Below are positions 745 to 57,328 of a stretch of DNA of 64,000 bases, piece by piece. Position 1 is the stretch's first letter; each line of letters begins with the position of its first letter. A program made the position numbers and the translations under genes. Below the pieces are notes generated by a model. The model saw nothing but the letters and a program-made list of their open reading frames with translations. It made no database searches and was not told the DNA's origin. Origin of the DNA: Streptococcus porcinus. Its GTDB lineage: Bacteria > Bacillota > Bacilli > Lactobacillales > Streptococcaceae. Where the stretch lies: contig NZ_LR594036.1 of assembly GCF_901542335.1 (NCBI RefSeq), forward strand, positions 558,001-622,000, in the 5' to 3' direction.

Positions 745-747
745 GTT

Positions 748-7937: not shown

Positions 7938-8177
7938 GTGAAAAAAGAACTAACAGCAATTAAAAACAGAATAAGGAAGTTAAAGGATAAAAAGGCTCTG
8001 ATTGATGAAGAATTGGAGCCTTTATTTATTCGCGAGGAAGAACTTGAAAATGAGGAAATCATAGCGATTTGCAGAAAAAACAACATCACAATCGGTGATT
8101 TGATGGCAAAGATAAACAGAGAAAAAGCAGAAATGAAAAAGGAGAAAACAAATGAAAACCAGTTTGAAAAAGAATAA
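7938..8177 (+). CDS. DUF4315 family protein
   Basis: 79 residues, almost entirely charged helix: a long heptad-like stretch, then the short conserved block ICRKNNITIGDLM. It starts at a GTG preceded by AAGGAGGG. Its end overlaps the start of the following DUF4366 gene by 26 bases. DUF4315 proteins are a regular small component of this conjugation module; their function is unknown. The sequence suggests a soluble helical hairpin. Confidence 0.85.
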   Translation: MKKELTAIKNRIRKLKDKKALIDEELEPLFIREEELENEEIIAICRKNNITIGDLMAKINREKAEMKKEKTNENQFEKE

Positions 8178-9704: not shown

Positions 9705-9771
9705 GCACCAAAAATAATACAGTATTTGGTGCAAATTCAGGGCGAGAGAGTAAAATCTTTCGCTCTTTTTT
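9705..9771 (+). terminator. two tandem hairpins, the second with a T tract, before topB
   Basis: The first hairpin is GCACCAAA (9705-9712) with TTTGGTGC (9725-9732). The second is GGGCGAGAG (9740-9748) with CTTTCGCTC (9757-9765), followed by six T. The second has the form of an intrinsic terminator and lies between the DUF4366 and topoisomerase genes. Its loop core AGAGTAAAATCT recurs in the hairpin before the methylase gene (13247-13279). Confidence 0.7.
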
Positions 9772-13246: not shown

Positions 13247-13279
13247 AGGTGATTAGAGTAAAATCTAACCGCCTTTTTT
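13247..13279 (+). terminator. terminator-like hairpin upstream of the methylase/helicase gene
   Basis: AGGTGATTAGA (13247-13257) pairs with TCTAACCGCCT (13264-13274), with one mismatch and one wobble, followed by a T tract. The loop is GTAAAA, as in the hairpin before topB. It ends about 12 bases before the AAGGAGG ribosome binding site of the next gene, so it may act as an attenuator. Confidence 0.65.
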
Positions 13280-22759: not shown

Positions 22760-22797
22760 GGTCGGTGTGTCTTTTGGACCACACCGGCTCTTTTTTT
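22760..22797 (+). terminator. intrinsic terminator closing the DNA-processing operon
   Basis: GGTCGGTGTG (22760-22769) pairs over ten positions (two wobbles) with CACACCGGCT (22780-22789), followed by C and seven T. It stands just after the ssDNA-binding-like gene, and base composition becomes markedly more AT-rich beyond it. Confidence 0.85.
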
Positions 22798-26244: not shown

Positions 26245-27722
26245 GACTCTGTGAAAAAATTTCTGTAAATAGAGATTTCCTATGATAATTTAAGTAGGAC
26301 TAGATTACAGTTTCTCTAAATCCTATAATTAACGTATAACAAACATTTTTGTGCATGTAAAATTCCCGGAGGTTAAAATTCAATCTCCGGGATATTTATT
26401 TTTTCTTTTACTCTATTCTTCCTGGGTACATTATACAGAACTCATTATGTACTTTTCCCCAGTCTCTGAGGCTGTTTGTCCACTTTTTAGTAGCTTCAAA
26501 TGTAGCAAGATAAAGTGCTTTAAGAAGCGATGTTTCATTAGGAAAAACACTTCTTTGTCTATTCAACTTTCGGTATGTAGAATTTAATGATTCTATAGCG
26601 TTTGTAGTATATATTACCTTTCTGACAGCAGCAGAAAACTTGAATATCGGTGATACACAGTCCCAATTATCGTACCATCGTTTCATTGCGTTAGGATATT
26701 TATCTTCCCATTTATTATTTACCTTATCCAGAGCCTCTCTTCCAAGCTTTTCATTAGGTGCATGGTATATTGTCTTAAGATCATTGGCAAAAGGCTTCAT
26801 GTCCTTACTTGGAACATATCTAAGTGTGTTTCTTACCATATGCACTATACACCTTTGGTATTCAGTCTTAGGGAATGCAGCTGCTATAGCTTCTTTTATT
26901 CCACTTAATCCATCAGCACAAATTATAAGTACATCATTAATCCCTCTGTTCTTAAGATCATTAAGCACTGACAGCCAGTATTTAGCACTTTCATTTTCTC
27001 CTATGTTTATACTAAGTACTTCTTTTTTTCCTTCAGAGTTTATTCCTAGAATCACATATGCTGCAAGTTTCTTAATTATGCCTTCGACTCTTACAGAGTA
27101 ATGAATGGCATCTATATAGAGAATAGGATATACAGAATCAAGAGGTCTGTTTTGCCAATCTTCAATCTGAGGGAGAAGTTTATCTGTAACATCAGAGATA
27201 AATCCCTCTGATGTTTCAAATCCATATATGTCTTCTATAGTGTCAGAAATCTGTCTTGTAGTGAGTCCCTTAGCATACATAGAAATTATCTTCTGCTCGA
27301 TTGTAGAAATGTCCTTTTGTCTTTTTTTAACTACTTGTGGTTCAAAGGTAGAATTTCTATCCTGAGGAACATCAACGTTCATAGAACCATAACTTGAATT
27401 GAGACGTTTAGATTTGTATCCATTTCTATAGTCATCAGAATCAGAACGTTCTGATTTACCATAACCAAGATGATTATCAAGCTCTGCTTCCATCATCTCT
27501 TTAATTGTGCTACCAAGAAGATCTTTAAGAGCATCTTGAATATCTGCAGCGGTTTCAATTGGATACTCTTGCAGTAACTGTCGCACAATATTTCTTTTTC
27601 CTTCAGTCATAACTACTTTGTGTACTGGTTTCTTTTCTCTTGCCATAATAATAGGCCTCCTATGATATTTAAATTTTATCATAGGAGACCTATTTTAATT
27701 TACAGAAAAAATTTCACACACT
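26245..27722 (-). mobile_element. IS256-family insertion sequence (~1478 bp)
   Basis: The ends form imperfect inverted repeats of about 25 bases, both containing TGTGAAA(A/T)n-TTTCTGTAAAT (left 26245-26270, right complement 27697-27722). The repetition continues inwards as CCTATGATAA on both sides. The element contains one transposase gene on the minus strand and is flanked by a 9-bp direct repeat, in keeping with the 8-9 bp duplications of the family. It therefore transposed to this site recently enough to keep intact ends. Confidence 0.88.
26408..27646 (-). CDS. IS256-family (mutator-type) transposase
   Basis: 412 residues from MAREKKP; GGAGGCC lies upstream on the minus strand. The DDE catalytic frame can be followed: YPILYIDAIHYSV, DVLIICADGLSGIKEA with RCIVHMVRNT after it, and YTTNAIESLNSTYRK near the end. 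It moves the insertion sequence by cut or copy transposition. Full length, no frameshift, so probably active. Confidence 0.95.
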   Translation of the reverse strand: MAREKKPVHKVVMTEGKRNIVRQLLQEYPIETAADIQDALKDLLGSTIKEMMEAELDNHLGYGKSERSDSDDYRNGYKSKRLNSSYGSMNVDVPQDRNSTFEPQVVKKRQKDISTIEQKIISMYAKGLTTRQISDTIEDIYGFETSEGFISDVTDKLLPQIEDWQNRPLDSVYPILYIDAIHYSVRVEGIIKKLAAYVILGINSEGKKEVLSINIGENESAKYWLSVLNDLKNRGINDVLIICADGLSGIKEAIAAAFPKTEYQRCIVHMVRNTLRYVPSKDMKPFANDLKTIYHAPNEKLGREALDKVNNKWEDKYPNAMKRWYDNWDCVSPIFKFSAAVRKVIYTTNAIESLNSTYRKLNRQRSVFPNETSLLKALYLATFEATKKWTNSLRDWGKVHNEFCIMYPGRIE

Positions 27723-27731
27723 CATAGTTTA
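27723..27731 (+). repeat. 9-bp target duplication, right copy (CATAGTTTA)
   Basis: Right partner of the direct repeat at 26236-26244, immediately outside the IS256-family terminal repeat. Confidence 0.8.
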
Positions 27732-27761
27732 TTTTAAATATTTCGTAAAATGCAATAACAA

Positions 27762-28887
27762 GTTGAACACTTGCTAATAAAATTTATCCAATTGAATACA
27801 GTTTATCAAGTTGGGCTTCAAACAATTCTTCTGATGTAAAGTATTGGAGCACTTTTCTTGGCTTAGAGTTTATGATATCTGATACTGATAGAATCTCTTC
27901 CTCTGTATATCCTTCAATAGATTCTCCTTTTGGGATATACTTTCTTAGAATTCTGTTACATCTTTCATTTTGGGCTCTCTCCCAAGAACTATATGGATGA
28001 GTAAAGTATATACTTGTTTCTTCATCATCATACTCATTAAGCTTTGCAAACTCACTTCCGTTATCAGAAGTTATTGTTTTGAACACTTTGCTAAAGTTAT
28101 AGCCATATTCTTCCTTAAGGCTATTTATGGCATTATTAACTGCATCGGATTCTTTTCCTGGTATTTTGATAGTTATGTAGTATCTTGTTACTTTCTCTAT
28201 CAGTGTAAGCATTACGGCCTCATGCTTATTCTTTAAAGGTACTACCGTATCAATTTCCCAATGTCCGAACTCAACTTTTTCATTAACAATATCTGGTCTT
28301 TTTTCAATGCTAGTACCAAGTATTCGCTTATTCTTTATACTCCTATTCGCTTTTGTATTTCGCTTAAGAGCTTCAGGAAGCATAGATGGTGTAATACCTA
28401 CATCGCCTCTCCAGATAGCGTTATATATGGACTTAGTGCACATCATTTTATCCTTAGAGTATAGCTTTTTTCTTTTGGCATAGCCAACGCTACTATCTAC
28501 TGACCACCCCTTATTGATGAAGTAGTCAGTAATAGATTCCATGAATTTGCTAACATAAGAAGCCCGATACTTTCTGTGCGAATTTTTTCTGTTCTCTTCG
28601 TATCGTTTCTGACCTCTAGTTGGGATATATGCTGATGGTCTTCCTTTAGCAGAGGTTTTCTCAATGGTTCCTCTTCTAAGTTCGTACATAACGGTAGAGG
28701 GTGAGCAGTTAAGCTCTTTAGCTATGTAACGAAGAGATTTACCTTCGTTCGTTAGGTGTTTAATTGTACAGCGATCTTCAAAATTAAGATGTTTACCCCT
28801 TTGATGTTTGTGTATTTCAATGTTAGAATATAAGTTGTCCATGATATTTCTCCTTTAAAGATTTTTGTGTTGTGACTTAATTCTAAC
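27762..28887 (-). mobile_element. IS30-family insertion sequence (ends approximate)
   Basis: An IS30-type transposase gene flanked by weakly similar ends: GTTGAA... at 27762 on the left and ...TTCTAAC (complement GTTAGAA) ending near 28887 on the right. The repeats are imperfect, so the boundaries may be off by several bases and I cannot define a target duplication. It lies 31 bases from the IS256-family duplication and abuts the truncated exporter gene. Confidence 0.6.
27784..28842 (-). CDS. IS30-family transposase
   Basis: 352 residues. The N-terminal helix-turn-helix reads HLNFEDRCTIKHLTNEGKSL...IAKELNCSPSTVMYELRRG. The catalytic domain shows FGHWEIDTVV (first Asp), TITSDNGSEF (second Asp) and AQNERCNRILRKYIPKG (Glu). 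Start at MDNLYSN with GGAGAAATATC upstream on the minus strand. Intact and full length for the family. Confidence 0.95.
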   Translation of the reverse strand: MDNLYSNIEIHKHQRGKHLNFEDRCTIKHLTNEGKSLRYIAKELNCSPSTVMYELRRGTIEKTSAKGRPSAYIPTRGQKRYEENRKNSHRKYRASYVSKFMESITDYFINKGWSVDSSVGYAKRKKLYSKDKMMCTKSIYNAIWRGDVGITPSMLPEALKRNTKANRSIKNKRILGTSIEKRPDIVNEKVEFGHWEIDTVVPLKNKHEAVMLTLIEKVTRYYITIKIPGKESDAVNNAINSLKEEYGYNFSKVFKTITSDNGSEFAKLNEYDDEETSIYFTHPYSSWERAQNERCNRILRKYIPKGESIEGYTEEEILSVSDIINSKPRKVLQYFTSEELFEAQLDKLYSIG

Positions 28888-30151
28888 AAAGAAAATGTCA
28901 TGGATATTTTATTTTATTAATTTGTTCAATTTGATTTTACAATCTACCAAATTTAAAATTAAGGTTGAAAATGGAAATATTAAATACAGAGATAGTATTA
29001 TAGAAAAAAATAAAATATCTCAAGAGTTTATATTTAACATATTTAGCATTATATGCGCAAAGCTTGAATATAAAATATATAAATTATTACGTACTAAAGA
29101 ACAAGAAAACATTAAATATAACTGTGATTTAATATCGATAAATTTAAAAAATACATTAGTAATATCTTTCATTAACGCTTTAATGATTGCTACAATACTC
29201 TGCTTTGGCGGAATAAAAGTTGTGTTAGGACAATTATCTATTGGAGCGCTAGTTACATTTAATATTTTTTCTCAAAAATTTATTACTCCAATAACTAGTA
29301 TATATAGGTTTCCGACAGAAATATTGGATTATAAGCTATCATGGAGTAAAATAAAGCAAAAAATTATTGAAACTGAGATACTTGAAGATACAGGAGAAGA
29401 TATTGTCTCTATTGATAAAATAACTTTTAATGAAGTTAGTTTTAAATATAACGATATACTTGTATTGGAAAAATGTGAATTTCAATTGAAGACTGGAAAT
29501 ATGTATGCATTAGTCGGAGCTAGTGGCTCTGGAAAGTCAACCATTATTAAATTGATTCTTAGATTGTGGGATAATTATCAAGGAAATGTTTGTATCAATA
29601 ATAAAGATATTCGAAATATAAAAATTAGTTCGTTGAGAAATAAAATTTCTTATATATCTCAAGATATATTTTTATTAAATGGTACATTAAGAGAAAACTT
29701 GCAATCGAAAAAAAATGAGCCAGATGATTGCTTAATAGACATTTTATATAAAGTTAATCTAGGCATGTGGTTTGAAAAATTGACAAACGGATTAGATACT
29801 AATTTAGGAGAAAATGGTGCTAAGATTTCTGGTGGAGAAAAACAACGTATTGTCATTGCTAGAACAATTTTACAAAAACCACAAGTAATAATTTTTGATG
29901 AGGCAACATCTATGTTAGATGAAAAGACTGAAGAAAATATAATTAGCTTAATAAAAAAAGAATTTCAAAATTGTTTGATAATCTTCATAACACATAGATT
30001 GAGATCTATAAATTCTGTAGATTCAATATTAGTTCTTGATAATGGCAAAATAGTAGAAATTGGAACTTTTAAAGAATTAATAAACAATAGTGAATCTTTG
30101 TTTGGAAAAATGTTTATGAGGGGAGCGAATTTAAGTGGAGATTGTAATTAA
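28865..30151 (+). pseudogene. ABC exporter (bacteriocin-exporter-like), 5' truncated by IS30
   Basis: The open frame of 428 residues has a complete ATPase domain: Walker A GASGSGKST, signature ISGGEKQR, Walker B VIIFDEATSMLDE, H-loop ITHRLRS. Only the last part of the membrane domain remains (about 165 residues before the ATPase, against about 300 in an intact half-exporter). The first ~20 codons lie at the IS30 end and do not look like an exporter N terminus. No missing 5' part is found left of the insertions, so it was deleted. It is followed directly by an ABC transporter and a secreted protein gene that it probably once served. Confidence 0.8.
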
Positions 30152-31001
30152 AAACTTAGAAAAAGAATACGGCAAAATTAAGGTTGTTGATGGTGTTAGT
30201 TGTGCTATGCATAAAGGAATATATGGGGTATTAGGTAGGAATGGAGCTGGTAAAACAACACTGTTTAGAATGATTACAGGGTTGATAAAAAAAACATCTG
30301 GTGAAATATTGTTTATAGAAAATGGGAGTTATATAAAAGAGAAAAAAATTGCTGAATTAATAGGGTACCTTCCTCAGGATTTTGGGATGTATCCAGATTT
30401 TACAGTTTCCGATATTATGGAAGAAATTTCAATATTAAGAAATATAACAAAATCAAATAGAAAAGATGAAATAAATTTACTTTTAGAAAAAGTAAATTTA
30501 TTAGAATACAAAAATAAAAAATACAAAGAATTATCAGGGGGAATGAAACGCAGGCTTGGATTAGCACAAGCAATGTTGGGTAATCCAAAGGTATTAATAG
30601 TGGATGAACCTACAGCTGGTGTTGATCCAAAGGAAAGGATATATATAAGGAAACTTTTGAGTGAATATGCAAAAGAAAATATTGTAATATTGTCTACACA
30701 CCTAGTCGAGGATATTGAACACATTTGTGAAGAGTTATTAATTATTGAACAAGGGAAATTAATATATCAAGGGAAAATAGATGATTTGCTTTTGAAAGCA
30801 TCAAACAATTTAGGAATTAAAGAGTTCTGTACTTTAGATGAATTTCAAGAATACTCATGCAACAATAATGTTTTTACATTTAGAAGGGAATGCAAAAAAA
30901 TTATTGCTACGGTTTCTAAGAGTAACTCTGATATTAAAGAATTTAATGTGAGCCTTGAAGATGCATATATGTGGAAGATAAGTGAAGGGGAAAACCAATG
31001 A
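30135..31001 (+). CDS. ABC transporter ATP-binding protein
   Basis: 288 residues from a GTG at 30135 (GGGGAG upstream), overlapping the truncated exporter gene by 17 bases. It has Walker A GRNGAGKTT, Q-loop YLPQDFGM, signature LSGGMKRR, Walker B VLIVDEPTAGVDP and H-loop STHLVED. This is the CcmA/BcrA-type ATPase that pairs with separate membrane proteins. The two following genes encode such partners, and all overlap by 4 bases, so this is one complex. A role in immunity or export for the secreted protein downstream is plausible. Confidence 0.88.
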   Translation: MEIVIKNLEKEYGKIKVVDGVSCAMHKGIYGVLGRNGAGKTTLFRMITGLIKKTSGEILFIENGSYIKEKKIAELIGYLPQDFGMYPDFTVSDIMEEISILRNITKSNRKDEINLLLEKVNLLEYKNKKYKELSGGMKRRLGLAQAMLGNPKVLIVDEPTAGVDPKERIYIRKLLSEYAKENIVILSTHLVEDIEHICEELLIIEQGKLIYQGKIDDLLLKASNNLGIKEFCTLDEFQEYSCNNNVFTFRRECKKIIATVSKSNSDIKEFNVSLEDAYMWKISEGENQ

Positions 31002-33764: not shown

Positions 33765-34166
33765 ATGTCAAACAAAGAAAAATACATTTATGTTAAAGGT
33801 AATAAGATCTATGTCTCTGATGAAGTGTATAGAGCATATAAAAAAGAACTTAATCATGAAGCTCACTTGAAAAGATTGGATAGAAAACATAAGGTATTTA
33901 ATTTTGGAGACTTTAACACAAGTATTGTAGATGTTGCCGATGACACAGTAGATGTTGAAAAAATCATTGAAACTAAAATGCTGATAGAAGATCTGTATCG
34001 TGCATTGGACAGTCTAAATGATGAAGAGAGAAAGTTAATCGAAGCACTATATTTTGATGATAAAACTCTCACAGAAGTTGCAAAGCAAGGTGATACGAAT
34101 CCGATGAAAATCAGTAGACTAAGAAATAGGATTTTAGAGAAACTGAGAAAACTTTTGGATAAGTAA
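33765..34166 (+). CDS. sigma-region-4-like protein (copy 1)
   Basis: 133 residues. The C-terminal half resembles sigma factor region 4 (LYRALDSLNDEERKLIEALYFDDKTLTEVAKQ...ISRLRNRILEKLRKLL), a helix-turn-helix that normally contacts -35 DNA. There is no region 2, so it cannot melt promoters alone. The N-terminal part (YVKGNKIYVSDEVYRAYKKELNHE) is shared with the paralogue at 54498. RBS AAAGGAGGA. The gene lies between two terminator-like hairpins and is followed by the structured RNA. Confidence 0.8.
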   Translation: MSNKEKYIYVKGNKIYVSDEVYRAYKKELNHEAHLKRLDRKHKVFNFGDFNTSIVDVADDTVDVEKIIETKMLIEDLYRALDSLNDEERKLIEALYFDDKTLTEVAKQGDTNPMKISRLRNRILEKLRKLLDK

Positions 34167-34178
34167 ATTAAGTTTAAG

Positions 34179-34212
34179 TAGAGGGCAGGGAAAATCTTTG
34201 TCCTCTATTTTT
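34179..34212 (+). terminator. terminator after sigma-like copy 1
   Basis: TAGAGGGCA (34179-34187) pairs with TGTCCTCTA (34199-34207), followed by TTTTT. It separates the sigma-like gene from the structured RNA, which therefore probably has its own promoter. Confidence 0.75.
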
Positions 34213-34240
34213 AAAAAATTTTCAAAAAAAGTGTTAAAAG

Positions 34241-34269: not shown

Positions 34270-34305
34270 GGGACTTTTATACCTCGTTATATGTAGATTT
34301 TGTTT

Positions 34306-34598
34306 TTTGACAACTGAATAGACCAAGACAAGACGTTAACCGATAGTGGAGCAATTTACGAACTTACGCCAAGATAAACCTGCTAAGATAATTGGTTTAA
34401 ATGAATACCTACATTGTGTAGAGGATATAAGGTTTGTAGCGATAAATAGATTTGTATGAAAAGAGGATGGCAACTCTTGTGCGATGATACTAATGGGGAT
34501 AATGATACTTCTACAGTTGAAGCCGGCTCATCTTGAAAAGGGGCGGAGGTGAAATTCCTATGTAGCAGCCAATGCACTTGTCAATGTCAAAAAACTTA
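34306..34598 (+). ncRNA. conserved structured RNA, copy 1 (293 nt)
   Basis: Matches copy 2 (55050-55342) end to end at equal length. Near-identical blocks include TTTGACAACTGAATAGACCA, ACGCCAAGA, AAATGAATACC, ATGGCAACT, GATAATGATACTTC, AGCCGGCTC and the stretch 34545-34577. Variable parts still pair: GACAAG (34327-34332) with CTTGTC (34577-34582) corresponds to GGTAGG/CCTACC in copy 2; hairpin AAGAG/CTCTT (34461-34478) corresponds to ATAAG/CTTAT around the same loop core ATGGCAA. The 5' block resembles an rRNA boxA; GGAGGTGA (34545-34552) and ATG-TAG (34560-34565) are conserved. It lies upstream of the DUF6870-like and recombinase genes. No known RNA family recognised. Confidence 0.8.
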
Positions 34599-34631
34599 AT
34601 TAGAGAAAACAACGAAGAAAGGAGTTTTCTA

Positions 34632-35006: not shown

Positions 35007-36677
35007 ATGTCTAAAAATACTTTAAATGTAAATAGTTTTAAGGTGGCGATGTATCTTAGATTATCTCAGGACGATGAAAAATATGACAAAAATTTCAAGG
35101 TAGAGAGCAATAGTATTTCTAATAAAAGGTTACAAATAAAAGATTATATTGCTAATCAGCAAGATATGGAACTTGCAAAAGAATATATAGATGATGGATA
35201 TTCAGGAATAAACTTTGAAAGACCGGCTTTTAAGGCAATGATGGAAGATGTCATTACTGGAAATATTAACTGTATTATTGTAAAAGACTTATCGAGATTT
35301 GGAAGAGATTATATTGATAGCGGAAGATACTTACAAAGAGTATTTCCTTCTCTTGATGTGAGGTTTATTGCTTTAAATGACAACTATGACAGCTTTACAG
35401 CAAGTGAAACGGAAAAGAACTTAGTTATTCCTTTTAAGAACTTTATCAATGATAACTATTGTAGAGATACATCTGCAAAGGTAAGAAGTGTTTGCAAGGT
35501 CAAGAGAAAACAAGGACAGTTTATATCAAACTACACCCCTTATGGCTATGAAAAAGATAAAGAAGATAAGCACAAAATTGTAATAGATAAAGAAGTAGAG
35601 TATGTAGTGCAAAAAATCTTTACTATGAAGCTTGAGGGTTATAGTTCATTTTCTATTGCAAAACACTTAAATGATAATGGAATATTATCTCCTATGGAAT
35701 ACAAGAAATCAAAGGGGATTAGGTATAAGACAGGCTTTAGTACAAAAGCTGTTGCTAAGTGGGATACACCTGCTATTAATCGCATTCTAACCAATGAAAT
35801 CTATATTGGAACGCTTCAACAAGGGAAAAGAGAGAAGGTAAACTATAAGCTTGATAAAGTTGTTTCTAAAGATAGAAGTGATTGGATTGAAATTGAAGAT
35901 AACCACGAGGCAATTATTGATACCAATGATTTCGAGATTGTGCAGAAACTTTTAAAATGCGACATAAAGGCAAGAAATATAGGTGAAAAGGCAGATATAT
36001 TTTCCGGACTTTTATTTTGTAAGGATTGTAATTCACAAATGACAAAGAAAGTAGATAGAAGAGGAAAGAATCCTACAATCTACTATATTTGCTCTATGTA
36101 TAATAAGGGGAAGTCATGCAGCAGGCACTCTATTAAGCAGGAAGAACTGAAAAAGACGGTTCTTGAAACCATTCGTCACTATATAAACTCGCTTGGGAAA
36201 TACGAAGTTATTTCTGAAAAAGTAAGAGAAATGGAAATCTCTTATGAATTATTCAAAAAAATAGATAAAAGACAAGAACATACGAAAAAAAGTAAAGCGA
36301 AGTTTGAGCTTTTAAAATCATCCTTGTTTCAGGATTTAAAAGAAGGTCTTATTTCTGAAGAAGAATTTTACGATATGAGAGAGTTTTATACCAATCGTAT
36401 TGTAGAAAGCGAGCTGATTTTAGAAAGACAGGATAAAGAAATTGCAAGGCTGTATAAAAAGAGTATAGGTAATCAGAACTTCTTTTCTGAAATTAAGAAG
36501 TATAAAAATATCAATACTTTAGAAAGAGGACTTCTTGTAAGGTTAATAGATAAAATATATGTCTTGGAAAATCAAAGGATAGAAATTCATTTTAACTACG
36601 ATGAAACTTTAGATATATTTGATAAATTAAATAGCTACCCACTTCAAACACAAGAAAGAATCAGGGAGGTGGTGTAG
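35007..36677 (+). CDS. large serine recombinase 1 of 3
   Basis: 556 residues. The N-terminal resolvase domain has likely catalytic S20 (MYLRLSQDD) and VKDLSRFGRDYI. The recombinase domain spans about 165-290, a zinc-ribbon-like region is at about 333-375 (CKDCNSQMTKK...CSMYNKGKSCSRH), and a coiled coil ends the protein. Enzymes of this class integrate and excise elements through a Ser-linked double-strand break. RBS TTTGGAGG. The stop directly precedes the next recombinase start, so the three genes form one operon. Confidence 0.93.
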   Translation: MSKNTLNVNSFKVAMYLRLSQDDEKYDKNFKVESNSISNKRLQIKDYIANQQDMELAKEYIDDGYSGINFERPAFKAMMEDVITGNINCIIVKDLSRFGRDYIDSGRYLQRVFPSLDVRFIALNDNYDSFTASETEKNLVIPFKNFINDNYCRDTSAKVRSVCKVKRKQGQFISNYTPYGYEKDKEDKHKIVIDKEVEYVVQKIFTMKLEGYSSFSIAKHLNDNGILSPMEYKKSKGIRYKTGFSTKAVAKWDTPAINRILTNEIYIGTLQQGKREKVNYKLDKVVSKDRSDWIEIEDNHEAIIDTNDFEIVQKLLKCDIKARNIGEKADIFSGLLFCKDCNSQMTKKVDRRGKNPTIYYICSMYNKGKSCSRHSIKQEELKKTVLETIRHYINSLGKYEVISEKVREMEISYELFKKIDKRQEHTKKSKAKFELLKSSLFQDLKEGLISEEEFYDMREFYTNRIVESELILERQDKEIARLYKKSIGNQNFFSEIKKYKNINTLERGLLVRLIDKIYVLENQRIEIHFNYDETLDIFDKLNSYPLQTQERIREVV

Positions 36678-38360
36678 ATGGCAAGAACCGCAAACAGGAG
36701 AATGTCAGCAGAAGAAAATAAAGTAAGGATTGAACCTTTAAACAGTTTTCAAACAGCTATTTATGCCAGAATTTCAAGAGATAAGAAAGAGAAGCCAAGT
36801 GATTCCATTGAAAATCAGATTGCTCTTTGCGAGGGGTATATCCAAAAGAATGATGATCTTAGCTTGGCTGCTGTCTATAAGGATATTTCAAAGACCGGAA
36901 CGAATTTTGAAAGACCGGACTTTGATAAATTGATGGATGAAATCAGACAGGGAAAAATTGAGTGTATTGTCGTAAAGGACTTATCTCGTTTTGGAAGAAA
37001 CTATATTGAGCTTGGGAATTTTATTGAGAAGATATTTCCATTTCTCAATGTAAGATTTATTGCTGTTAATGATAATTTTGATACTTTTCATATGGAAGAC
37101 CCAAATAAATCGCTTGAAGTGATTTTGAAGAATCTTGTTAATGAGGGCTATGCGAAAGATATTTCAAAGAAAGTATCTACATCTCATCAGATACGAATCA
37201 AGCAAGGTGGATTTATCTGTGGGTCAGCGCCTTATGGGTATACGGCACGAAAAGACGAGAATGGAATAAGAAGATTGTATATAGATGAAAGTACGGCACC
37301 CATTGTTAAGGACATCTTTGAATCGTACTTAAAAGGACTTAGTACACTTGAAATTTCAAAGCTGCTACATGAAAGAAAAGTCTATGTTGCTACGGATTAT
37401 CGAAAATACAAAAAAGCCATAGCCGATAATGATGAGCCTGTTAGAATTTGGAATCCAACTACGGTTTTACAAGTGCTTAAAAATCGTGTTTATACAGGGA
37501 CTTTAATTCAAGGAAGAAATCAAAAGCATTTATATGAGGGAAAAAAGAGAGAAAGACTTTGTGAAGAACACTGGACAGTAACAGAAAATGCCCATGAAGT
37601 CATTATCTCAATAGATACTTTTGAAAAGGTGCAGGCGGTAATTTCCACAAAATCGAGTCAGATTAGAAATAGCAGACAGAAAAATGCTCATTCTAAAGAT
37701 GATACGGTCTTTAGAGGAAAAGTTTATTGTGGGATTTGCAAAAAGAGAATGAGCGTTCACAGGCAACAAAGTGGTAAAAAATCCGTGTTTTATTTTAGTT
37801 GCAATAGGTTTCAAGAATTTACAACAGAAAAATGTGGAGTGGCTATTACGGAAACCACTCTTGAAAAAACTGTTAAGGCAGCTTTTGATGCAATCCTTTT
37901 AAATAACGGTAAAAGCTACAAAGAATACTTAAAGGGTTATGAGAAAGTAATAGGAGAACTTGATAGAAAGAGTGATAGGGAACTCACTGAGATCAACCGG
38001 AAATATACAAAACTTAGCAGGCTTCAAAGTGAATATTATGAAAAGTATGTTTTGGGAGAATGGACAAAAGAAACTTTTGAAAAAGAGAAAGATAACCTCA
38101 ATCAAAGTAAGAAAGAATTGGAGATTTTCAAGGAAAAGCAAATATCAACTTATGATGAAGAAAAATTCAAACTTCAGGAACAGCATAAGTATCTTGAAGC
38201 TCTTATCAAGGGAAAAAACAAGAAATGGGATAAGGATTTTGTAACTGCCATTATAGATAAGATATTTATCGGAAAAGATAATAGCATAGAAATCAAGTTT
38301 AATTTTGAAGAGAAGTCTGTGGTTAGAGAAAAACTTGGTGGAAAGGTAAAAAGGTGCTGA
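36678..38360 (+). CDS. large serine recombinase 2 of 3
   Basis: 560 residues, starting immediately after the first recombinase stop (GGGAGG overlaps the end of that gene). Likely catalytic S33 (IYARISRDK), VKDLSRFGRNYI, a recombinase domain with GSAPYGYTARK, a zinc ribbon (CGICKKRMSVH...CNRFQ..TEKCG) and a coiled coil. It differs clearly from its neighbours, so the three are not a recent tandem duplication and probably have separate roles in one reaction. Confidence 0.93.
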   Translation: MARTANRRMSAEENKVRIEPLNSFQTAIYARISRDKKEKPSDSIENQIALCEGYIQKNDDLSLAAVYKDISKTGTNFERPDFDKLMDEIRQGKIECIVVKDLSRFGRNYIELGNFIEKIFPFLNVRFIAVNDNFDTFHMEDPNKSLEVILKNLVNEGYAKDISKKVSTSHQIRIKQGGFICGSAPYGYTARKDENGIRRLYIDESTAPIVKDIFESYLKGLSTLEISKLLHERKVYVATDYRKYKKAIADNDEPVRIWNPTTVLQVLKNRVYTGTLIQGRNQKHLYEGKKRERLCEEHWTVTENAHEVIISIDTFEKVQAVISTKSSQIRNSRQKNAHSKDDTVFRGKVYCGICKKRMSVHRQQSGKKSVFYFSCNRFQEFTTEKCGVAITETTLEKTVKAAFDAILLNNGKSYKEYLKGYEKVIGELDRKSDRELTEINRKYTKLSRLQSEYYEKYVLGEWTKETFEKEKDNLNQSKKELEIFKEKQISTYDEEKFKLQEQHKYLEALIKGKNKKWDKDFVTAIIDKIFIGKDNSIEIKFNFEEKSVVREKLGGKVKRC

Positions 38361-38361
38361 T

Positions 38362-39909
38362 ATGAATACAGTAGATTTTTACTTAAGATTATCTTTGGAG
38401 GATGGAGATTACAAGGATGAGAGTAACAGCATTATCTCACAAAGGGCGATTCTAAAAGATTACATCAACTCAAGAGATGAATTTACAGGCGTTAAGGTAA
38501 GAGAACATATAGATGATGGTTATACCGGAACAAATTTTAATCGTCCAGCTTTTCAAAAAATGATTGAGCTTGTTAAGGAAAATGAAGTAAATACAATTCT
38601 TGTAAAAGATTTATCTCGTTTTGCAAGAGATTATATTGAAGCGGGGGCATATATTGAGCAGATATTTCCCTTTATGCAAGTTCGATTTATTTCCGTTAAT
38701 GATAATTATGATAGTAACAACAATGAAGATGGAGTTGTCGGTTTAGATGTTCCGTTTAGAAATCTTACCCATGATTACTATTCAAAAGACATTTCACAGA
38801 AAATGCGTTCATCTGTAAAAGTGAGACAAGATAAAGGTTATTACTTCGGTTCAAAAGCTCCTTACGGATATGTAAAAGATGAAAGAGATCATCACCATTT
38901 GATTGTCGATAAAGAAGTAAGACATATTGTTGAAGAAATATTTGAAAGATATTTAGCTGGAGATAGTATGCTTTCTATCGCCAAAGATTTCAATGAAAGA
39001 GAAATTTTAACTCCCGCAAAGCATATTGGATTAAAAAGAGGAAGTGGAATCTGGACGGGGCAAATCGTTAGATATATTTTAAAGCAAAGAGTTTATACGG
39101 GTGCAATTGTTGGTGGAAAGACAAGGGTACAGGAAGTTGGCTCTGATAGTAAGAAATGGATAGATGAAAGGGAATGGATTATACGAGAAGATATGCACGA
39201 AGCTATCGTTCCTAAAGAGAATTTTAGTAAAGTTCAAGAGCTGTTAAATCGCAATGAAAAAAATATTAGCAGAGAGCGGAAAAACTTCCATATCCTTCAA
39301 GATATAGTCTATTGTGGTAAATGTCATCATAAAATGGCTTATACCGTTCATTATGGCAAAACAGATGGATATTGCTGTCCATATAGGTATAAAGCAAAAG
39401 ATTGTGGTTGCATGAAAGGAAAGATACAGGCATCAATACTTGAAAAGATTGTAGCTGAAGAAATAAGGCTTTATACAGAGCATTTCCTTGAACAAGAGCA
39501 AATGAGAGCTATTGAGTATAGGATTCAGGAAAGTATTTGTGAGAACTTGCTGGATAGAAAAAGAAAATTAGAAGATGAGAAACAAAAATTGCAGGTATCT
39601 AAAATGCAGCTTTATGAAAAGCATAAGCAGGGAGTTACGGATAAGGAAACATATCTCTTTCAAAAAGCAGTTTTTACCAAGAAAATCCAAAGTATAGAAC
39701 AGGAAATATCTATCGTAGAAGATAAGATAAAGAAAAATACTGCTTCAGGGCATAACTTAAATGTTGATAAAATAAGAGAAGCGGCATCAAAAGGAGAGCT
39801 TGTTTTAGACTGGATCAATGAAGTCATAGAAAAGATATATATTTATGACAAAGATAAGATTGAGATAGTTTGGAAATTTAAAGAAAGTGAGTATGCAGAT
39901 GGACAATAA
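38362..39909 (+). CDS. large serine recombinase 3 of 3
   Basis: 515 residues. Likely catalytic S11 (FYLRLSLED), VKDLSRFARDYI, SKAPYGYVKD, a zinc ribbon (CGKCHHKMAY...CCPYRYKAKDCGC) and a coiled-coil tail. The start lies one base after the stop of recombinase 2. Triple serine recombinases are known from some large Firmicute elements where all three are needed for movement, but whether that holds here is inference. Confidence 0.93.
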   Translation: MNTVDFYLRLSLEDGDYKDESNSIISQRAILKDYINSRDEFTGVKVREHIDDGYTGTNFNRPAFQKMIELVKENEVNTILVKDLSRFARDYIEAGAYIEQIFPFMQVRFISVNDNYDSNNNEDGVVGLDVPFRNLTHDYYSKDISQKMRSSVKVRQDKGYYFGSKAPYGYVKDERDHHHLIVDKEVRHIVEEIFERYLAGDSMLSIAKDFNEREILTPAKHIGLKRGSGIWTGQIVRYILKQRVYTGAIVGGKTRVQEVGSDSKKWIDEREWIIREDMHEAIVPKENFSKVQELLNRNEKNISRERKNFHILQDIVYCGKCHHKMAYTVHYGKTDGYCCPYRYKAKDCGCMKGKIQASILEKIVAEEIRLYTEHFLEQEQMRAIEYRIQESICENLLDRKRKLEDEKQKLQVSKMQLYEKHKQGVTDKETYLFQKAVFTKKIQSIEQEISIVEDKIKKNTASGHNLNVDKIREAASKGELVLDWINEVIEKIYIYDKDKIEIVWKFKESEYADGQ

Positions 39910-43676: not shown

Positions 43677-43912
43677 TTACCTCTCTATCTCCTTACCCAT
43701 ATATTTCTCATAATTTTTTCTGATCTGATACAGTTCTTTCATATCGGATTTTGCAGAAGAATACTCTTGCATTAGAGTATTCTTTTTTTATGAAATGAAT
43801 CAAGCTCTTTTAGAATATCCTTAGATTTTGGAAGTTTTGAGTAAGATTTTTTTATATTTGAAATGGCATTTTCATATAGTGTTATTTCTGATTTATGTTC
43901 TTCAAAAAAGCC
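43677..43912 (-). pseudogene. frameshifted C-terminal tail of the relaxase
   Basis: After the relaxase stop, the continuation is readable in other frames: EEHKSEITLYENAISNIKK and SKLPKSKDILKELDSFH in one frame, then TLMQEYSSAKSDMKELYQI and NYEKYMGKEIER-stop (43677-43679) in another. Adding one base to the A6 tract at about 43904-43909 (plus strand) and one to the T7 tract at 43783-43789 would restore a continuous C terminus. This would extend the relaxase to about 440 residues. Confidence 0.7.
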
Positions 43913-45006
43913 TTATCAGATGGATCTTTCTTATATTCCAGATAGATTTGGCGATACTCCTTTACGGCATGAATTTGTTCCATAGTATTTGATAGAACTG
44001 AAATCTTGTTATCAATAACTTTGATTTGATCCTGTAAATCTTGTCTTTTTAATGCACTCTCTTTAATGTATTCATCAAGATGGGATATAGACTTAAATCC
44101 TTTTTCACGCATCAAAAGAACAGTATCGGCTGCAGTTTTTAAATTATGTTTTGTAGCCCAATACTCATAACCTTTGTTTGATTTTATCTTTTCATTATTT
44201 GCAATATCAATAATATTTCCTACACGCTTTTTAACAGTATAGGTTCTTTGATTCGCATTATCTAGGATACGCTCTTTTAATTTATCCTCAGTATAATCTT
44301 CTCCAATAGTCTTAGCTCTTGTAAATCTTTCTTTGTCATTGTGCTTAAACGCAATGTGCTTTCCATACTTGATTTCATAATCAAGGGTAGTCATTTTCTT
44401 TAGAAAATCATCCCAATCATTGGATTGTTTAATAGCTCTATCAATATCAAATTGAAGCCTGCTTTTCCAAGAGGTACCTTTCTTGAATTGGTCATTTTCA
44501 TACCATGACTTACCATTAGTCTTATATTTCTTTCTATAAGTTTCATAGAACTCATCAATAACAGATAGATTATTTTCTTTACACAATTTATCGCTTTGAT
44601 ACCTAATTTGATGATAACTTTTTTTATTTGACTGGTAGCACTTGCCTGTAACCATATTTACATTATTGAAGATGATATGGTTATGGATATGCCCTTTATC
44701 TATATGGGTAGTAAGTACGAACTCGTACTGATCTTTAAGTATTCTTTTACAAAGTTCCATTCCGATTTGATGTGCCATTTCTGGCGTAGTTTCACCTGGC
44801 GTAAATGACTGAATGAGGTGTCTTGCAAGTACAGCTCCATTAACTTTATTATCTTCTCTAGTCTTCATAAAAGCAGTATGGGCAGTAGAAGCAAAGCACT
44901 TATTTGTGCTTACCAATATTTTTTCGTCAGTCTTTTCTTCGTTTGTTATATAGGCGATAGCGAGGTTAAGAGTGGATTTTATAGGATGTATTTTTGTGAT
45001 TGCCAT
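43882..45006 (-). CDS. MOBP-type relaxase, C-terminally truncated
   Basis: 374 residues. Motif I carries likely nicking tyrosine Y19 (LAIAYITNEEKT). The metal-binding histidines appear as H101 and HxHxH at 106-110 (HIDKGHIHNH), followed by the conserved N-rich strand (IIFNNVNM). The relaxase nicks oriT and pilots the strand into the recipient. The catalytic domain is complete, but a frameshift near 43905 replaces the C-terminal ~65 residues with a short tail (LKNINQK). Adjacent to mobC on the same strand and downstream of the candidate oriT. Confidence 0.88.
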   Translation of the reverse strand: MAITKIHPIKSTLNLAIAYITNEEKTDEKILVSTNKCFASTAHTAFMKTREDNKVNGAVLARHLIQSFTPGETTPEMAHQIGMELCKRILKDQYEFVLTTHIDKGHIHNHIIFNNVNMVTGKCYQSNKKSYHQIRYQSDKLCKENNLSVIDEFYETYRKKYKTNGKSWYENDQFKKGTSWKSRLQFDIDRAIKQSNDWDDFLKKMTTLDYEIKYGKHIAFKHNDKERFTRAKTIGEDYTEDKLKERILDNANQRTYTVKKRVGNIIDIANNEKIKSNKGYEYWATKHNLKTAADTVLLMREKGFKSISHLDEYIKESALKRQDLQDQIKVIDNKISVLSNTMEQIHAVKEYRQIYLEYKKDPSDKAFLKNINQK

Positions 45007-48394: not shown

Positions 48395-48397
48395 AAT

Positions 48398-50134: not shown

Positions 50135-50164
50135 AAATTAGAAAAATTTATTAGGAGGAAGAAA

Positions 50165-50746
50165 ATGAGAGAAAATAAACTAAAGATCAAAGATTTAGTA
50201 ACCATTGGTGTATTTGCAGTTATCTATTTTGTAGTAATGTTCGGTGTGGGAATGATAGGAATGGTACCTATTTTATTCTTAATCTATCCTAGCATCCTTG
50301 GAATTGTTACAGGTACGATTCTTATGTTATTTATGTCGAAGGTACAAAAACCTTGGGCGTTATTTATACTTGGTATGCTTTCACCATTATTAATGTTTGC
50401 GATGGGGCACACCTATATAATAGCTGTACATGCTCTTGTTGTCATGATTATTGCTGAAATGATTAGAAGGGCAGGTGGATACAATTCTTTTAAATATAAT
50501 ATGTTTGCTTTTGCAATTTTTAATACATGGATTTGTGGCTCACTTATGCAAATGCTATGGGCAAAAGAAAAATATATTGAATTATCAATGATGATGGGAA
50601 AAGAATATGTGGATGCTTTAGAAAAGCTAATCACCTATCCACATATGGCAATAGTTTATATTGGTGCTCTTGTTAGTGGAATAATTGGAGCATATATTGG
50701 AAAGGCACTTCTTAAGAAACACTTTAACAAAGCGGGTATCGTTTAA
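50165..50746 (+). CDS. MptD family ECF transporter S component (putative)
   Basis: 193 residues with about five or six spans. The opening LKIKDLVTIGVFAVIYFVV and the short polar loops resemble the MptD/Trep_Strep family, regarded as substrate-binding S components of energy-coupling factor transporters. RBS AGGAGGAAG. Its stop overlaps the start of the T component by 1 base (TAATG), and the duplicated ATPase follows, so all three ECF parts are present in order S-T-A. Substrate unknown. Confidence 0.8.
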   Translation: MRENKLKIKDLVTIGVFAVIYFVVMFGVGMIGMVPILFLIYPSILGIVTGTILMLFMSKVQKPWALFILGMLSPLLMFAMGHTYIIAVHALVVMIIAEMIRRAGGYNSFKYNMFAFAIFNTWICGSLMQMLWAKEKYIELSMMMGKEYVDALEKLITYPHMAIVYIGALVSGIIGAYIGKALLKKHFNKAGIV

Positions 50747-51438
50747 TGTGGTCTGTGAAGAAAAATAGCCTAAACCCAAATTCCATAACGAAGTTTTTCG
50801 TTGTGGGATTGTTGGGATTGACTGTTGTACATTCAATTCATCCTGTTTTGGAGTGGATGGTTATATTTGTAATTTCTATCATGTATTTGATGAATGGATT
50901 AAAAAAAGAAGCGTTAAAAAATGTCATTATATTCGGAGTTTTATTTCTTGCTCCTAATTTTAAAATATTAGCTCAATTACCATTTTTTATAAAAATGTTT
51001 TTTTCTTTAATTTTTGTGCTTCGTATGTTTTATATTCCATATGCAGCAGGTAAATTTTTGATTAAAACATCAGATGTGGGAAGTATTATTTCATCTATGG
51101 ATGTTTTAAAAATACCGAGTGCTATATCCATACCTGTTGCAGTTATGTTTCGCTTTTTTCCATCTTTTGTTGAAGAAAAGAATAATATAAAAATGGCAAT
51201 GAAAATAAGAGGGATAGAGACAAAAAACCCTTTGAAATACTTAGAGTATGTAGCTGTACCTCTTTTAATTATTTCGTCAAATATTGCAGATGATATATCA
51301 AAGGCGGCAGAAACAAAATGTATTGCCAACCCTATAAAAAAGACAAGATATATTAGAGTAGGAGTTGGTGTAATTGATTTTATTTATGCTATGACGATGA
51401 CAATAATAGTTATAGGAGGGTGGTTATGCTTGAAATAA
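50746..51438 (+). CDS. ECF transporter T component (CbiQ-like)
   Basis: 230 residues: four or five spans, with the coupling segments near 130-180. The motif IKMAMKIRGIET (A-R-G type) is the usual contact with the ATPases. It lies between the S component (1-base overlap) and the ATPase gene (overlap of 13 bases with its start). Links S and A subunits in the membrane. Confidence 0.85.
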   Translation: MWSVKKNSLNPNSITKFFVVGLLGLTVVHSIHPVLEWMVIFVISIMYLMNGLKKEALKNVIIFGVLFLAPNFKILAQLPFFIKMFFSLIFVLRMFYIPYAAGKFLIKTSDVGSIISSMDVLKIPSAISIPVAVMFRFFPSFVEEKNNIKMAMKIRGIETKNPLKYLEYVAVPLLIISSNIADDISKAAETKCIANPIKKTRYIRVGVGVIDFIYAMTMTIIVIGGWLCLK

Positions 51439-52835: not shown

Positions 52836-52871
52836 TAAAGAAGTAATAATCATTAGAGAGGGAGGTTACTT

Positions 52872-54497: not shown

Positions 54498-54908
54498 ATG
54501 TCAAAAGAATATTACCTTTATGTCAATGGGCAAAAGGTTAAAGTCAGCGAGCAGATATATAAAGTCTACTGGCGAGAAAAAGAACACGAAAAGTATTTAG
54601 AGCAAGTGGACAAGAAAAACCACTTGCTCTTTTTTTCTTCAATGGATCATGATGGACACTTCACAGACAACATTGTTGATGAAAGCATTGATGTAGCAAA
54701 GATTGTTGAAACACAGATGATGATTGAAGCGTTAAAAAAAGCTATATCAAGGCTCAATGCAGAAGAAAGAGATATTATTGAACGCTTGTATTTCAATGAT
54801 GAGACGGTTCGTTCAGTGGCAAAGCTCAAAAGTATTACACATCCGGCTTTAATCAAAAGAAGAAACAAAATTCTTGAAAAGCTGAAAAATTTCATCGGAG
54901 AACTTTAA
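54498..54908 (+). CDS. sigma-region-4-like protein (copy 2)
   Basis: 136 residues, a paralogue of the protein at 33765: the same opening (YLYVNGQKVKVSEQIYKVYWREKEHE against YIYVKGNKIYVSDEVYRAYKKELNHE, compared in parts) and a region-4-like C terminus (AISRLNAEERDIIERLYFND...HPALIKRRNKILEKLKNF). No region 2. RBS ATGGAGGAAAC. Placed between two terminator-like hairpins and followed by RNA copy 2, exactly as copy 1. Confidence 0.8.
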   Translation: MSKEYYLYVNGQKVKVSEQIYKVYWREKEHEKYLEQVDKKNHLLFFSSMDHDGHFTDNIVDESIDVAKIVETQMMIEALKKAISRLNAEERDIIERLYFNDETVRSVAKLKSITHPALIKRRNKILEKLKNFIGEL

Positions 54909-54979: not shown

Positions 54980-55049
54980 GAGTAAGAGATACATCTGTTT
55001 ATGGCAGATAGGAAAATGTAAAGAAAACAATCCCTTTCAAATATTGCTC

Positions 55050-55342
55050 TTTGACAACTGAATAGACCAAGGTAGGACTTTATCCACTTGCTGAGAATTA
55101 TGACCTACGCCAAGACTTTTCTGCTGATGAAAATCGGTTCAAATGAATACCGGAGCTAAGTCGAGGATAGAAGAAAACGAGCGACAGATAGGAATACATA
55201 AAAGATAAGTATGGCAACTTATTTCGATGATGCAAGTGGTGATAATGATACTTCAATAGTTTAAGCCGGCTCGTCTGAAACAAGGGGTGGAGGTGAGATT
55301 CCTATGTAGCAGCCAATGCACCTACCAATGTCATAAAACTTA
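55050..55342 (+). ncRNA. conserved structured RNA, copy 2 (293 nt)
   Basis: Same length and same conserved blocks as copy 1. Long-range helix GGTAGG (55071-55076) with CCTACC (55321-55326); hairpin ATAAG (55205-55209), loop TATGGCAA, CTTAT (55218-55222). Immediately upstream is TTGCTC, giving TGCTCTTTGACAACTGAAT, very similar to Firmicute rRNA boxA/spacer sequences. GGAGGTGA is at 55289-55296, then ATG-TAG at 55304-55309. It precedes a small gene and the terminal recombinase. No known RNA family recognised. Confidence 0.8.
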
Positions 55343-55648: not shown

Positions 55649-57328
55649 ATGTCAAAAGAAAAAATAAAAGTATACCTCTATACAAGAGTATCTACATCAA
55701 TACAGATAGATGGCTATTCTTTAGAGGCACAAAAATCAAGAATGAAGGCGTTCGCCCTTTATAATGATTATGAAATTGTAGGAGAATATGAAGATGCGGG
55801 CAAGTCTGGAAAATCTATTGAGGGAAGAATACAGTTTACTCGCATGATGGAAGATATAAAATCCGGAAAGGATGGAGTATCTTTTGTTCTTGTGTTTAAG
55901 CTGTCAAGATTTGCAAGAAATGCTGCTGATGTTTTATCAACTCTACAAACAATGCAAGATTTTGGAGTCAATTTGATTTGTGTTGAGGATGGGATTGATT
56001 CATCCAAAGATGCAGGTAAATTGATGATTTCTGTTTTATCAGCAGTGGCTGAAATAGAAAGAGAAAACATTCGTGTCCAAACAATGGAAGGTCGTATTCA
56101 AAAGGCAAGAGAGGGTAAATGGAATGGTGGATTTGCTCCGTATGGCTATCAACTGATTGATGGAAAGTTGTTAATAAATGAAGAAGAAGCAATTGCAATA
56201 AGAACTATATTTGATCAGTATGTAAACACAAGTATTGGAGCTAATGGTCTTTCTAAGTATTTAGAAAATCATGGTATAAGAAAAATACCAAGACAAAATG
56301 GAAAAAATCCATTGTTTGACGCAGGTCTTATAAGAAAGATATTAAAGAATCCTGTATATAATGGGAAAATAGCGTTTGGAAGAAGAACATTAGAAAAAGT
56401 TCATGGTACAAGGAATGAATATAGACAAGTAGATCAGGACGATTATATAGTAGCAGAAGGAATTCATGAAGCAATAATTCCAGATAAATTATGGCAGGCT
56501 GCACAAGTAAAACTGAAAGCACAAGCTAAAAAGTATGAACATGTAAATAAGGGCAAAAACATGCGGACGCATTTATTATCGGGAATAGTAAAGTGTCCAA
56601 TATGTGGGGCTGGAATGTTTGGAAACAAATCCATCAAATATAAAAAAGATGGGACGAAATATAAAGACTTCTATTACTATGGTTGTAAACATAGACTTAT
56701 GAATAGAGGGCATAAATGCACCTACAACAAACAAATTAGAGAAGAATTGTTAGACGATGCTGTCGCTGAGGTAATAATCAAGTTAGTAAGCAACCCTAAA
56801 TTTGCATCTATGATACAAGAAAAAATCAACATGAAGGTTGATACATCAGCTATTGAAAATGAGATAGATAATTACCAAAAAGAGCTGAGAAAAAGTCATT
56901 CCACAAAATTTAAGCTCATTGAAGAAATAGATAACTTAGATGTTGATGATAAACATTATAAGAGAAGAAAAACTGATTTGGATGATAGACTTTATCGTAT
57001 GTACGATAAAATTGAGAAATTAGAAGGTCAGTTAATAGAAGCTAAAGCAAAGAAAGAAACAATAGAAGCTGAGAAACTTACTGGCGATAATATATATAAA
57101 GTTTTGATTTATTTTGACAAGCTTTATAAAGTCATGAACGATGTTGAACGCAGACAGTTAATAGAAGCACTCATTTCAGAAATTCAAATTTATGAAGAGA
57201 AGCAGCCAAATGGGCAATGGCTAAAATCCATTATTTTTAAGCTACCTATCATTGATGAGGATCTAAACATAAGTTTGGACAATGATGTGCATGTTGAATG
57301 CGTGAGCCTGCTAGAAAAACGCAACTAA
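55649..57328 (+). CDS. int: large serine recombinase at the element end (integrase)
   Basis: 559 residues. Resolvase domain with likely catalytic S15 (YTRVSTSIQIDGYSLEAQ), FKLSRFARNAADVL and ERENIRVQTMEGR; recombinase domain with GFAPYGYQLIDGK; zinc ribbon with CPICGAGMFGNK and a second Cys pair (YGCKHRLMNRGHKC); then a coiled coil and C-terminal cap. It is only distantly related to the three recombinases at 35-40 kb. As the last mobile gene before chromosomal-type genes, it is the probable integrase/excisionase of the whole element. Confidence 0.92.
   Translation: MSKEKIKVYLYTRVSTSIQIDGYSLEAQKSRMKAFALYNDYEIVGEYEDAGKSGKSIEGRIQFTRMMEDIKSGKDGVSFVLVFKLSRFARNAADVLSTLQTMQDFGVNLICVEDGIDSSKDAGKLMISVLSAVAEIERENIRVQTMEGRIQKAREGKWNGGFAPYGYQLIDGKLLINEEEAIAIRTIFDQYVNTSIGANGLSKYLENHGIRKIPRQNGKNPLFDAGLIRKILKNPVYNGKIAFGRRTLEKVHGTRNEYRQVDQDDYIVAEGIHEAIIPDKLWQAAQVKLKAQAKKYEHVNKGKNMRTHLLSGIVKCPICGAGMFGNKSIKYKKDGTKYKDFYYYGCKHRLMNRGHKCTYNKQIREELLDDAVAEVIIKLVSNPKFASMIQEKINMKVDTSAIENEIDNYQKELRKSHSTKFKLIEEIDNLDVDDKHYKRRKTDLDDRLYRMYDKIEKLEGQLIEAKAKKETIEAEKLTGDNIYKVLIYFDKLYKVMNDVERRQLIEALISEIQIYEEKQPNGQWLKSIIFKLPIIDEDLNISLDNDVHVECVSLLEKRN

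Follow-up and report, generated by a model that had tools for sequence, protein, structure and literature searches.

Two RNAs of the canT/pemK type on mobile elements of Streptococcus porcinus are probable processive antiterminators with a boxA-like 5' end

The closest described system is canT, which was mapped by Wirachman and Grossman (2024; PMC11658703) to the orf8-xis intergenic region of Tn916. canT acts in cis, in one orientation and processively, on terminators of the element as well as foreign ones, and does so without other Tn916 genes. Mutants of canT excise normally and lose expression beyond terminator T1, canT supplied in trans does not complement them, and activity is seen with lacZ and foreign terminators in a reporter whose fragment extends into the start of xis (PMC11658703). 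The same authors report canT-like sequences in some Tn916-like elements, suspect a direct contact with RNA polymerase, and leave the structure open, calling it complicated to read activity from structure predictions. The conjugation operon of pLS20 is likewise subject to RNA-based processive antitermination, by conAn2, but unlike canT this RNA also works together with a protein, ConAn1 (PMC8955417). A further RNA, pemK, is named in PMC11507696 and listed in PMC7657543 among the RNAs whose database structure omits covarying pairs; its Rfam entry (RF02913) bears the type 'Cis-reg' as its sole annotation. pemK, of unknown function, and canT, of unknown structure, appear until now to have been two unconnected entries.

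We analysed a 64,000-nucleotide window of the S. porcinus genome in which an initial annotation had described two copies of a structured RNA, at 34306-34598 and 55050-55342. Both copies are present at these places, with the conserved unit shifted slightly (Table 1), and the genome holds four copies in total. When 34302-34600 is aligned with 55046-55344, 223 of 295 aligned positions are identical (75.6%). The paired substitutions that had been pointed out are confirmed for the end helix, P1, and for the internal hairpin, P4, which reads AAGAG/CTCTT in copy 1 and ATAAG/CTTAT in copy 2 (55205-55222). A further helix that had been overlooked, P2, is also kept through change, as CCGATAGTG/TACTAATGG in copy 1 and CCACTTGC/GCAAGTGG in copy 2. 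Unconstrained minimum-energy folds of both copies contain every pair of P1 (6/6), P4 (5/5) and P9 (3/3); for P2 they contain 8/8 pairs in copy 2 and just 4/9 in copy 1. The inner part of P3 can be read as AAACCT/AGGTTT in copy 1 and TTTTCT/AGAAAA in copy 2, and in this register 0/6 pairs appear in the unconstrained minimum-energy fold of either copy.

Table 1. Positions of the two RNAs, their parts and neighbouring features within the 64,000-nucleotide window.
Feature	Position	Strand	Basis or remark
Copy 1, canT/pemK-type (probable) antiterminator RNA, whole conserved unit	34302..34595	+	alignment to copy 2 and relatives; Rfam core match
boxA-like 5' element, copy 1, GTTTTTTGACAACTGAATA	34302..34320	+	
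P1 5' strand, copy 1, GACAAG	34327..34332	+	
P2 5' strand, copy 1	34340..34348	+	then GA (putative kink-turn 1) at 34349-34350
5' side of putative kink-turn 2 in P3, copy 1, CGCCAAGA	34367..34374	+	
Inner P3 arm (proposed), copy 1, TAAACCT ... AGGTTTG	34375..34436	+	
3' side of putative kink-turn 2, copy 1, TAGCGA	34437..34442	+	GAGCGA in many relatives
P4 hairpin, copy 1, AAGAG-GATGGCAA-CTCTT	34461..34478	+	
P2 3' strand, copy 1	34488..34496	+	
Rfam pemK core (RF02913), copy 1, opening with AUAAUGAUACU	34499..34563	+	
P9 hairpin, copy 1	34565..34575	+	
P1 3' strand, copy 1, CTTGTC	34577..34582	+	
Copy 2 of the RNA	55046..55339	+	
boxA, copy 2, GCTCTTTGACAACTGAATA	55046..55064	+	
P1 5' strand, copy 2, GGTAGG	55071..55076	+	partner CCTACC 55321-55326
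P2 5' strand, copy 2, CCACTTGC	55084..55091	+	partner GCAAGTGG 55232-55239
Rfam pemK core, copy 2	55242..55307	+	Rfam match
Small sigma-70 region-4 protein, upstream of copy 1, in the place of Tn916 orf7	33765..34166	+	
ORF comparable in size, at the corresponding place before copy 2	54498..54908	+	no Pfam match
Three large serine recombinase genes, downstream of copy 1	35007..39909	+	
Large serine recombinase, downstream of copy 2	55649..57328	+	
Strong intrinsic-terminator-like hairpin between transfer-module ORFs	7991..8023	+	predicted
Strong intrinsic-terminator-like hairpin between transfer-module ORFs	9739..9766	+	predicted
Strong intrinsic-terminator-like hairpin between transfer-module ORFs	13247..13274	+	predicted
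Strong intrinsic-terminator-like hairpin between transfer-module ORFs	22760..22789	+	predicted

Relatives were assembled in two sets. The first came from 124 loci, which gave 118 copies (none from 6 loci), 94 of them distinct; 77 carried the 5' box with at most 4 mismatches, 60 of 72 passed the anchor parse, and 38 and 37 nonredundant copies entered the tests. The held-out set came from 129 loci (126 usable), of which 92 were unlike the first set and 61 nonredundant, 49 of these with the box. In the first set (n=38) the strands of P1 pair with their own partners at a mean of -14.0 kcal/mol and with partners permuted among copies at -7.7; the corresponding means are -11.2 and -7.6 for P2, and -8.4 and -4.6 for the outer part of P3 (0/20000 permutations in each case). 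Control windows displaced from P1 and P2 gave no pairing signal in these 38 copies, and both the P1 and P2 results and the null controls were repeated in the 49 held-out copies. In the 85 nonredundant copies of both sets together, at least 7 uninterrupted pairs are found for P1 in 75 copies, with 72 distinct stems, and for P2 in 76 copies, with 69 distinct stems, compared with 31% and 29% when partners are swapped. P1 and P2 have been kept while their sequences changed almost completely, and the partner permutations, the held-out set and the diversity of the stems give strong support, in many relatives, to the original proposal of selection on RNA structure.

Of the 37 nonredundant first-set copies, 24 have the exact 3' core and 30 read A[U/C]AAUGAUACU there; the figure for both sets, 72/85, is inflated because the held-out copies were chosen by the exact core. 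The base that follows the core pairs with the R of RUG in 37/37 first-set copies (U-A in 28, C-G in 9), and in both sets together there are 69 U-A and 16 C-G among 85 without exception, the held-out search pattern having required Y and R without prescribing how they are combined. Alignment-based covariation was noisy. In a plain MAFFT alignment of 59 copies, pairs of P3, P2 and the core ranked near the top together with columns 301-308, which are not base pairs, and in a less diverse streptococcal subset of 34 copies the top pair was non-Watson-Crick and the signal looked largely like clade structure. We therefore rely on the partner-permutation tests with displaced controls. Shuffling single hairpins gave a weak signal, with inner P3, P4 and P9 in the best 5% for 9, 9 and 7 of 38 copies, and P2, judged in each sequence separately, outscores shuffled versions of itself in just 8/38.

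A kink-turn consists of a C-stem, a 3-nt bulge, tandem GA/GA and an NC-stem. P3 often opens with CGC-CAU-GA and closes with GA-GCG, and the paired pattern occurs in 41 of 49 held-out copies compared with 4% of shuffles; in short forms of P3 just GA-NNN-GA is kept. The border of P2 has a similar layout, GA-GC on one side and GC-NNN-GA on the other, strictly so in 17/37 copies compared with 13% with swapped partners. These patterns lead us to propose kink-turn-like motifs in both P2 and P3.

The RNA had been presented as new and as belonging to no recognised family. This does not hold, since RF02913, the Rfam model of pemK RNA, matches copy 1 at 60.9 bits and copy 2 at 46.4 bits, both above the gathering cut-off of 34.8, and a wholly new RNA family is thereby rejected. 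The match takes in the entire model (positions 1-61), but only 65-66 of about 293 bases in each copy. Rfam thus already holds the 3' core, whereas the remaining four fifths, with boxA, P1, P2, P3, P4 and P9, fall outside its model. RF02913 matches were found in 55 of 147 related genomes and in 26 of 398 genomes across the phylum, our own genome being counted in both. The exact core pattern occurs in at least 118 stretches of named genomes, and among the matches listed there are 80 titles, all Bacillota by name. It also occurs in 11 stretches of viral contigs, perhaps integrated elements binned as viral; a search of a phage collection with copy 1 gave no match. The dinG RNA (RF03082) has AAUGAUACUUC in common with the window RNA, which scores 18.3 bits against that family's cut-off of 46.9 and is not a member.

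In Tn916 the homologue, 292 nt long, occupies +125 to +416 relative to the orf8 stop, between orf8 and xis, and many relatives of the window RNAs directly precede the Tn916 excisionase gene. Tn916-type copies were found with RF02913, and the box, P1, P2 and P3 are common to them and the window RNAs. In the Tn916 copy, the ATA altered by the inactivating 3-bp change canT(S3), at +283 counted from the orf8 stop, makes up the opening three nucleotides of the core AUAAUGAUACU, and the 162-bp canT deletion (+229 to +390) takes out the pemK core. By these comparisons the window RNA is homologous to canT, an antiterminator of tested function (PMC11658703), over its whole length, and pemK and canT are, on the same grounds, one RNA family. 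This identity is new here, as is the extent of the conserved unit, about 290 nt in the window compared with 61 in the Rfam model. The main text of PMC11658703, the sole paper that our literature search for canT returned, makes no mention of pemK, boxA, NusB or rRNA; a pemK-canT link may have been published earlier. canT and the window RNAs are alike in length, in the order of sigma-like gene, RNA and recombination genes, and in the core struck by the inactivating mutation, and differ in that the window elements carry serine recombinases and that most helix sequences are different. The whole pLS20 record, within which conAn2 was not located, contained no pemK match and nowhere the box, core and P8 together (there was one weak box-core pair without P8), so that no relation to conAn2 was found in that record.

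The genes around the RNA conform to this picture. A recombinase homologue lies downstream in 72 of 94 distinct loci (44 of serine type, 28 of tyrosine type or Xis) and a sigma-like ORF upstream in 51 of 94, both being lower bounds; many loci hold only 1.5 kb downstream. Among the 22 loci without a phmmer recombinase match, Pfam showed a tyrosine integrase in all three that were examined (L122, L120 and L109), in one case passing the cut-off for the SAM-like domain only. In the window, copy 1 is preceded by a sigma-70 region-4 ORF and followed by a small DUF6870 ORF and the recombinase genes, and thus has the canT arrangement of a sigma-like gene upstream and recombination genes downstream; copy 2, which follows an ORF of similar size and precedes a small ORF and a recombinase gene, shares only the recombinase. 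Judged by their genes, the element of copy 1 would be conjugative and that of copy 2 mobilizable. Upstream of copy 1 lie transfer genes of the first element: PrgI, CD1107-like and topoisomerase genes score above Pfam cut-offs and TrbL-, TraC- and CHAP-like ORFs just under them, in a scan that excluded the 16575-22052 ORF. As in Tn916, the RNA would therefore come before these genes only after excision into a circle. A separate RNA, Rfam SQ2397 (RF03532, 'cis-regulator of HTH transcription factor'), was seen further upstream in one Tn916-type locus (L013, 52-281).

We consider it likely that the window RNAs, as members of the canT/pemK family, are cis-acting processive antiterminators of mobile elements, their most likely use being to let polymerase read through stop signals in long DNA-transfer operons. 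The RNA would be made at the element's right end, where it follows the sigma-like gene and immediately precedes the recombinase genes; once the element has been excised and the circle closed, its transcript would continue into the transfer genes. As the nascent RNA folds, P1 would close around P2, P3 with its kink-turn-like motif, P4, the pemK core and P9, and the folded RNA would modify the passing RNA polymerase such that intrinsic terminators are ignored. Both window copies would act in the same way as Tn916 canT. Two observations in PMC11658703 count against the antiterminator reading: a 291-nt canT fragment that holds the mutated regions is inactive, and S3 has little effect in a 400-bp fragment. 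If the fragment series has a common 5' end, the inactive fragment would hold nearly the whole conserved unit. The weak signal of P2, inner P3, P4 and P9 in single sequences and the strict form of kink-turn 1 in only 17/37 copies likewise weigh against this reading.

The mechanism that we favour, by a modest preference, relies on host NusB-S10. Its proposed point of entry is the 5' boxA, the element by which rRNA transcripts load NusB-S10; the mobile element would thus borrow the antitermination factors of host rRNA, and the structured core would do the job performed elsewhere by phage N/boxB or by the extra rRNA factors. The RNA opens with GTTCTTTGAMAACTGAATA or a close variant. No more than 4 mismatches to the 19-mer are found in 73 of 92 distinct copies of the first set, from which the pattern was itself derived, compared with 0/92 for the reversed pattern, 2/91 in a region further upstream and 1/1840 for shuffled patterns. 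In the held-out set the box is present in 49 of 61 copies (reversed, 0/61; shuffled, 0/610). Against the proposal stand 19 of the 92 first-set copies and 12 of the 61 held-out ones, in which the searched region has no match with 4 or fewer mismatches. The host has a similar element in its own rRNA leaders, with CCTTTGAGAACTGAATAAGACAAG shortly before 16S in 5/5. In 30 further genomes the 16S search located rRNA in 16; with our own included, 14 of 17 genomes (one of which has only 7 bases of leader present) carry a boxA-like element in the leader with at most 3 mismatches to a 14-mer, and 5 of 17 carry it exactly in the 16S-23S spacer, both being raw counts.

The E. coli-derived boxA consensus, bound by NusB/E, is GYTCTTTAANA (PMC5725501; for further background see PMC12691694 and PMC10931766). 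From its likeness to this consensus and from its position, we infer that the Firmicute boxA-like sequence is a NusB-S10 site; our literature search found no paper on this sequence in that role, nor one joining boxA, integrative conjugative elements and antitermination. The window RNA has its box at the 5' end, as Nus-factor antitermination would have it, and the resemblance of the box in most copies to the rRNA leader or spacer element of the same genomes suggests recruitment of NusB-S10. The settings differ in that boxA is followed by pre-rRNA in the one case and by an element-borne structured RNA, with putative Nus dependence, in the other. An initial reading of TTGACA in the box as a promoter was set aside after the like element turned up in rRNA leaders. 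In copy 1 the box segment UUUUUUGACA (34303-34312) is fully complementary to the 3' flank UGUCAAAAAA (34585-34594) and is paired with it in the minimum-energy fold; most of this complementarity is absent from copy 2. Such pairing counts against a strict need for boxA; it could hide the box in copy 1, possibly as an off-state or as a sign of decay.

The RNA of phage HK022, put, brings about antitermination by touching RNA polymerase directly, and the family described here may do the same, with boxA as a minor helper or in another role such as protection of the transcript. We regard this as a serious possibility, though not the one on which we would settle. It is what the canT authors suspect, and no other Tn916 gene is needed for canT (PMC11658703). 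The active 452-bp canT fragment spans +126 to +577 (PMC11658703), and the Tn916 box GTTCTTTGAAAAC begins at +121; the fragment lacks the first five bases of boxA, and a complete boxA may therefore not be needed in that reporter. Against direct contact as the whole explanation, most copies of the two sets retain the box, which resembles the element of host rRNA, and the text of PMC11658703 drawn on here has no report of a reporter host missing Nus factors.

Should NusB-S10 recruitment hold for the family at large, pemK and canT together would constitute an antitermination cassette transferable among conjugative elements across Bacillota, in which the host rRNA boxA and a compact kink-turned core give the polymerase on the transfer operon an rRNA-type resistance to terminators, without any protein encoded by the element. 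Our opinion on this wider proposal is evenly balanced. The union of pemK and canT already provides pemK, a widespread orphan RNA family, with a likely function and the antiterminator canT with an architecture supported by covariation, and the boxA step predicts a host factor, NusB-S10, on which the horizontal transfer of Tn916-like elements would depend.

Other roles fit these data much less well. If the RNA controlled translation of the next gene in cis or served it as a riboswitch, this would agree with the Rfam type 'Cis-reg' and with the placement of the RNA 5' of genes, but these genes vary (DUF6870, xis, small ORFs, recombinases), canT mutants of Tn916 show normal excision while losing expression past T1, and canT is active with lacZ and foreign terminators, even though that fragment reaches the start of xis (PMC11658703); we consider such a role improbable. 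That recombinases are such frequent neighbours could hint at an RNA acting in trans or as a guide or scaffold for the recombinase, yet the RNA accompanies serine and tyrosine enzymes alike, and the failure of canT to complement in trans and the unchanged excision of its mutants (PMC11658703) make this very improbable. The least credible reading takes this non-coding region close to the element end for a site that works as DNA (an attachment site, a transfer origin or a binding array) and in which the pairing is incidental, against which stand the many different P1 and P2 stems and the orientation-specific action of canT between promoter and terminator (PMC11658703).

The transfer module contains predicted stop signals of the kind that such an RNA would have to overcome. 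A strict scan of 1-26200 identified the four sense-strand hairpins of Table 1 between co-directional ORFs, where 20 shuffles gave 0 or 1 each, and two strong antisense hairpins, one of them the same hairpin as one on the sense strand; a looser scan of 1-16500 found 12 compared with 9.9 in shuffles, no excess. Terminator-like hairpins with T tails also lie in the interval between the sigma-like ORF and the RNA of both copies (34178-34215 and 54950-54980). Across the family a terminator directly upstream of boxA was scored in 27 of 76 copies, compared with 20/76 further upstream and 4/76 downstream, and is therefore not supported as a family feature.

Other genes of the window were noted in passing. 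The transfer module contains a group II intron (2614-4886; RF02012, RF00029) with its reverse transcriptase (3104-4801), which adjoins the TraC-like ORF at 1049-2599 and probably interrupts that gene. Two insertion-sequence transposases, one of the Mutator family and one of the HTH_38/rve type, occupy 26408-28842 beside ABC transporter ATPase genes (28865-31001). A MobA/VirD2-type relaxase gene (43882-45006) is oriented opposite to the RNA transcript, and at 46481-54224 the second element encodes a MATE efflux protein, a double ABC ATPase and two ABC exporters in which the membrane and ATPase parts are fused.
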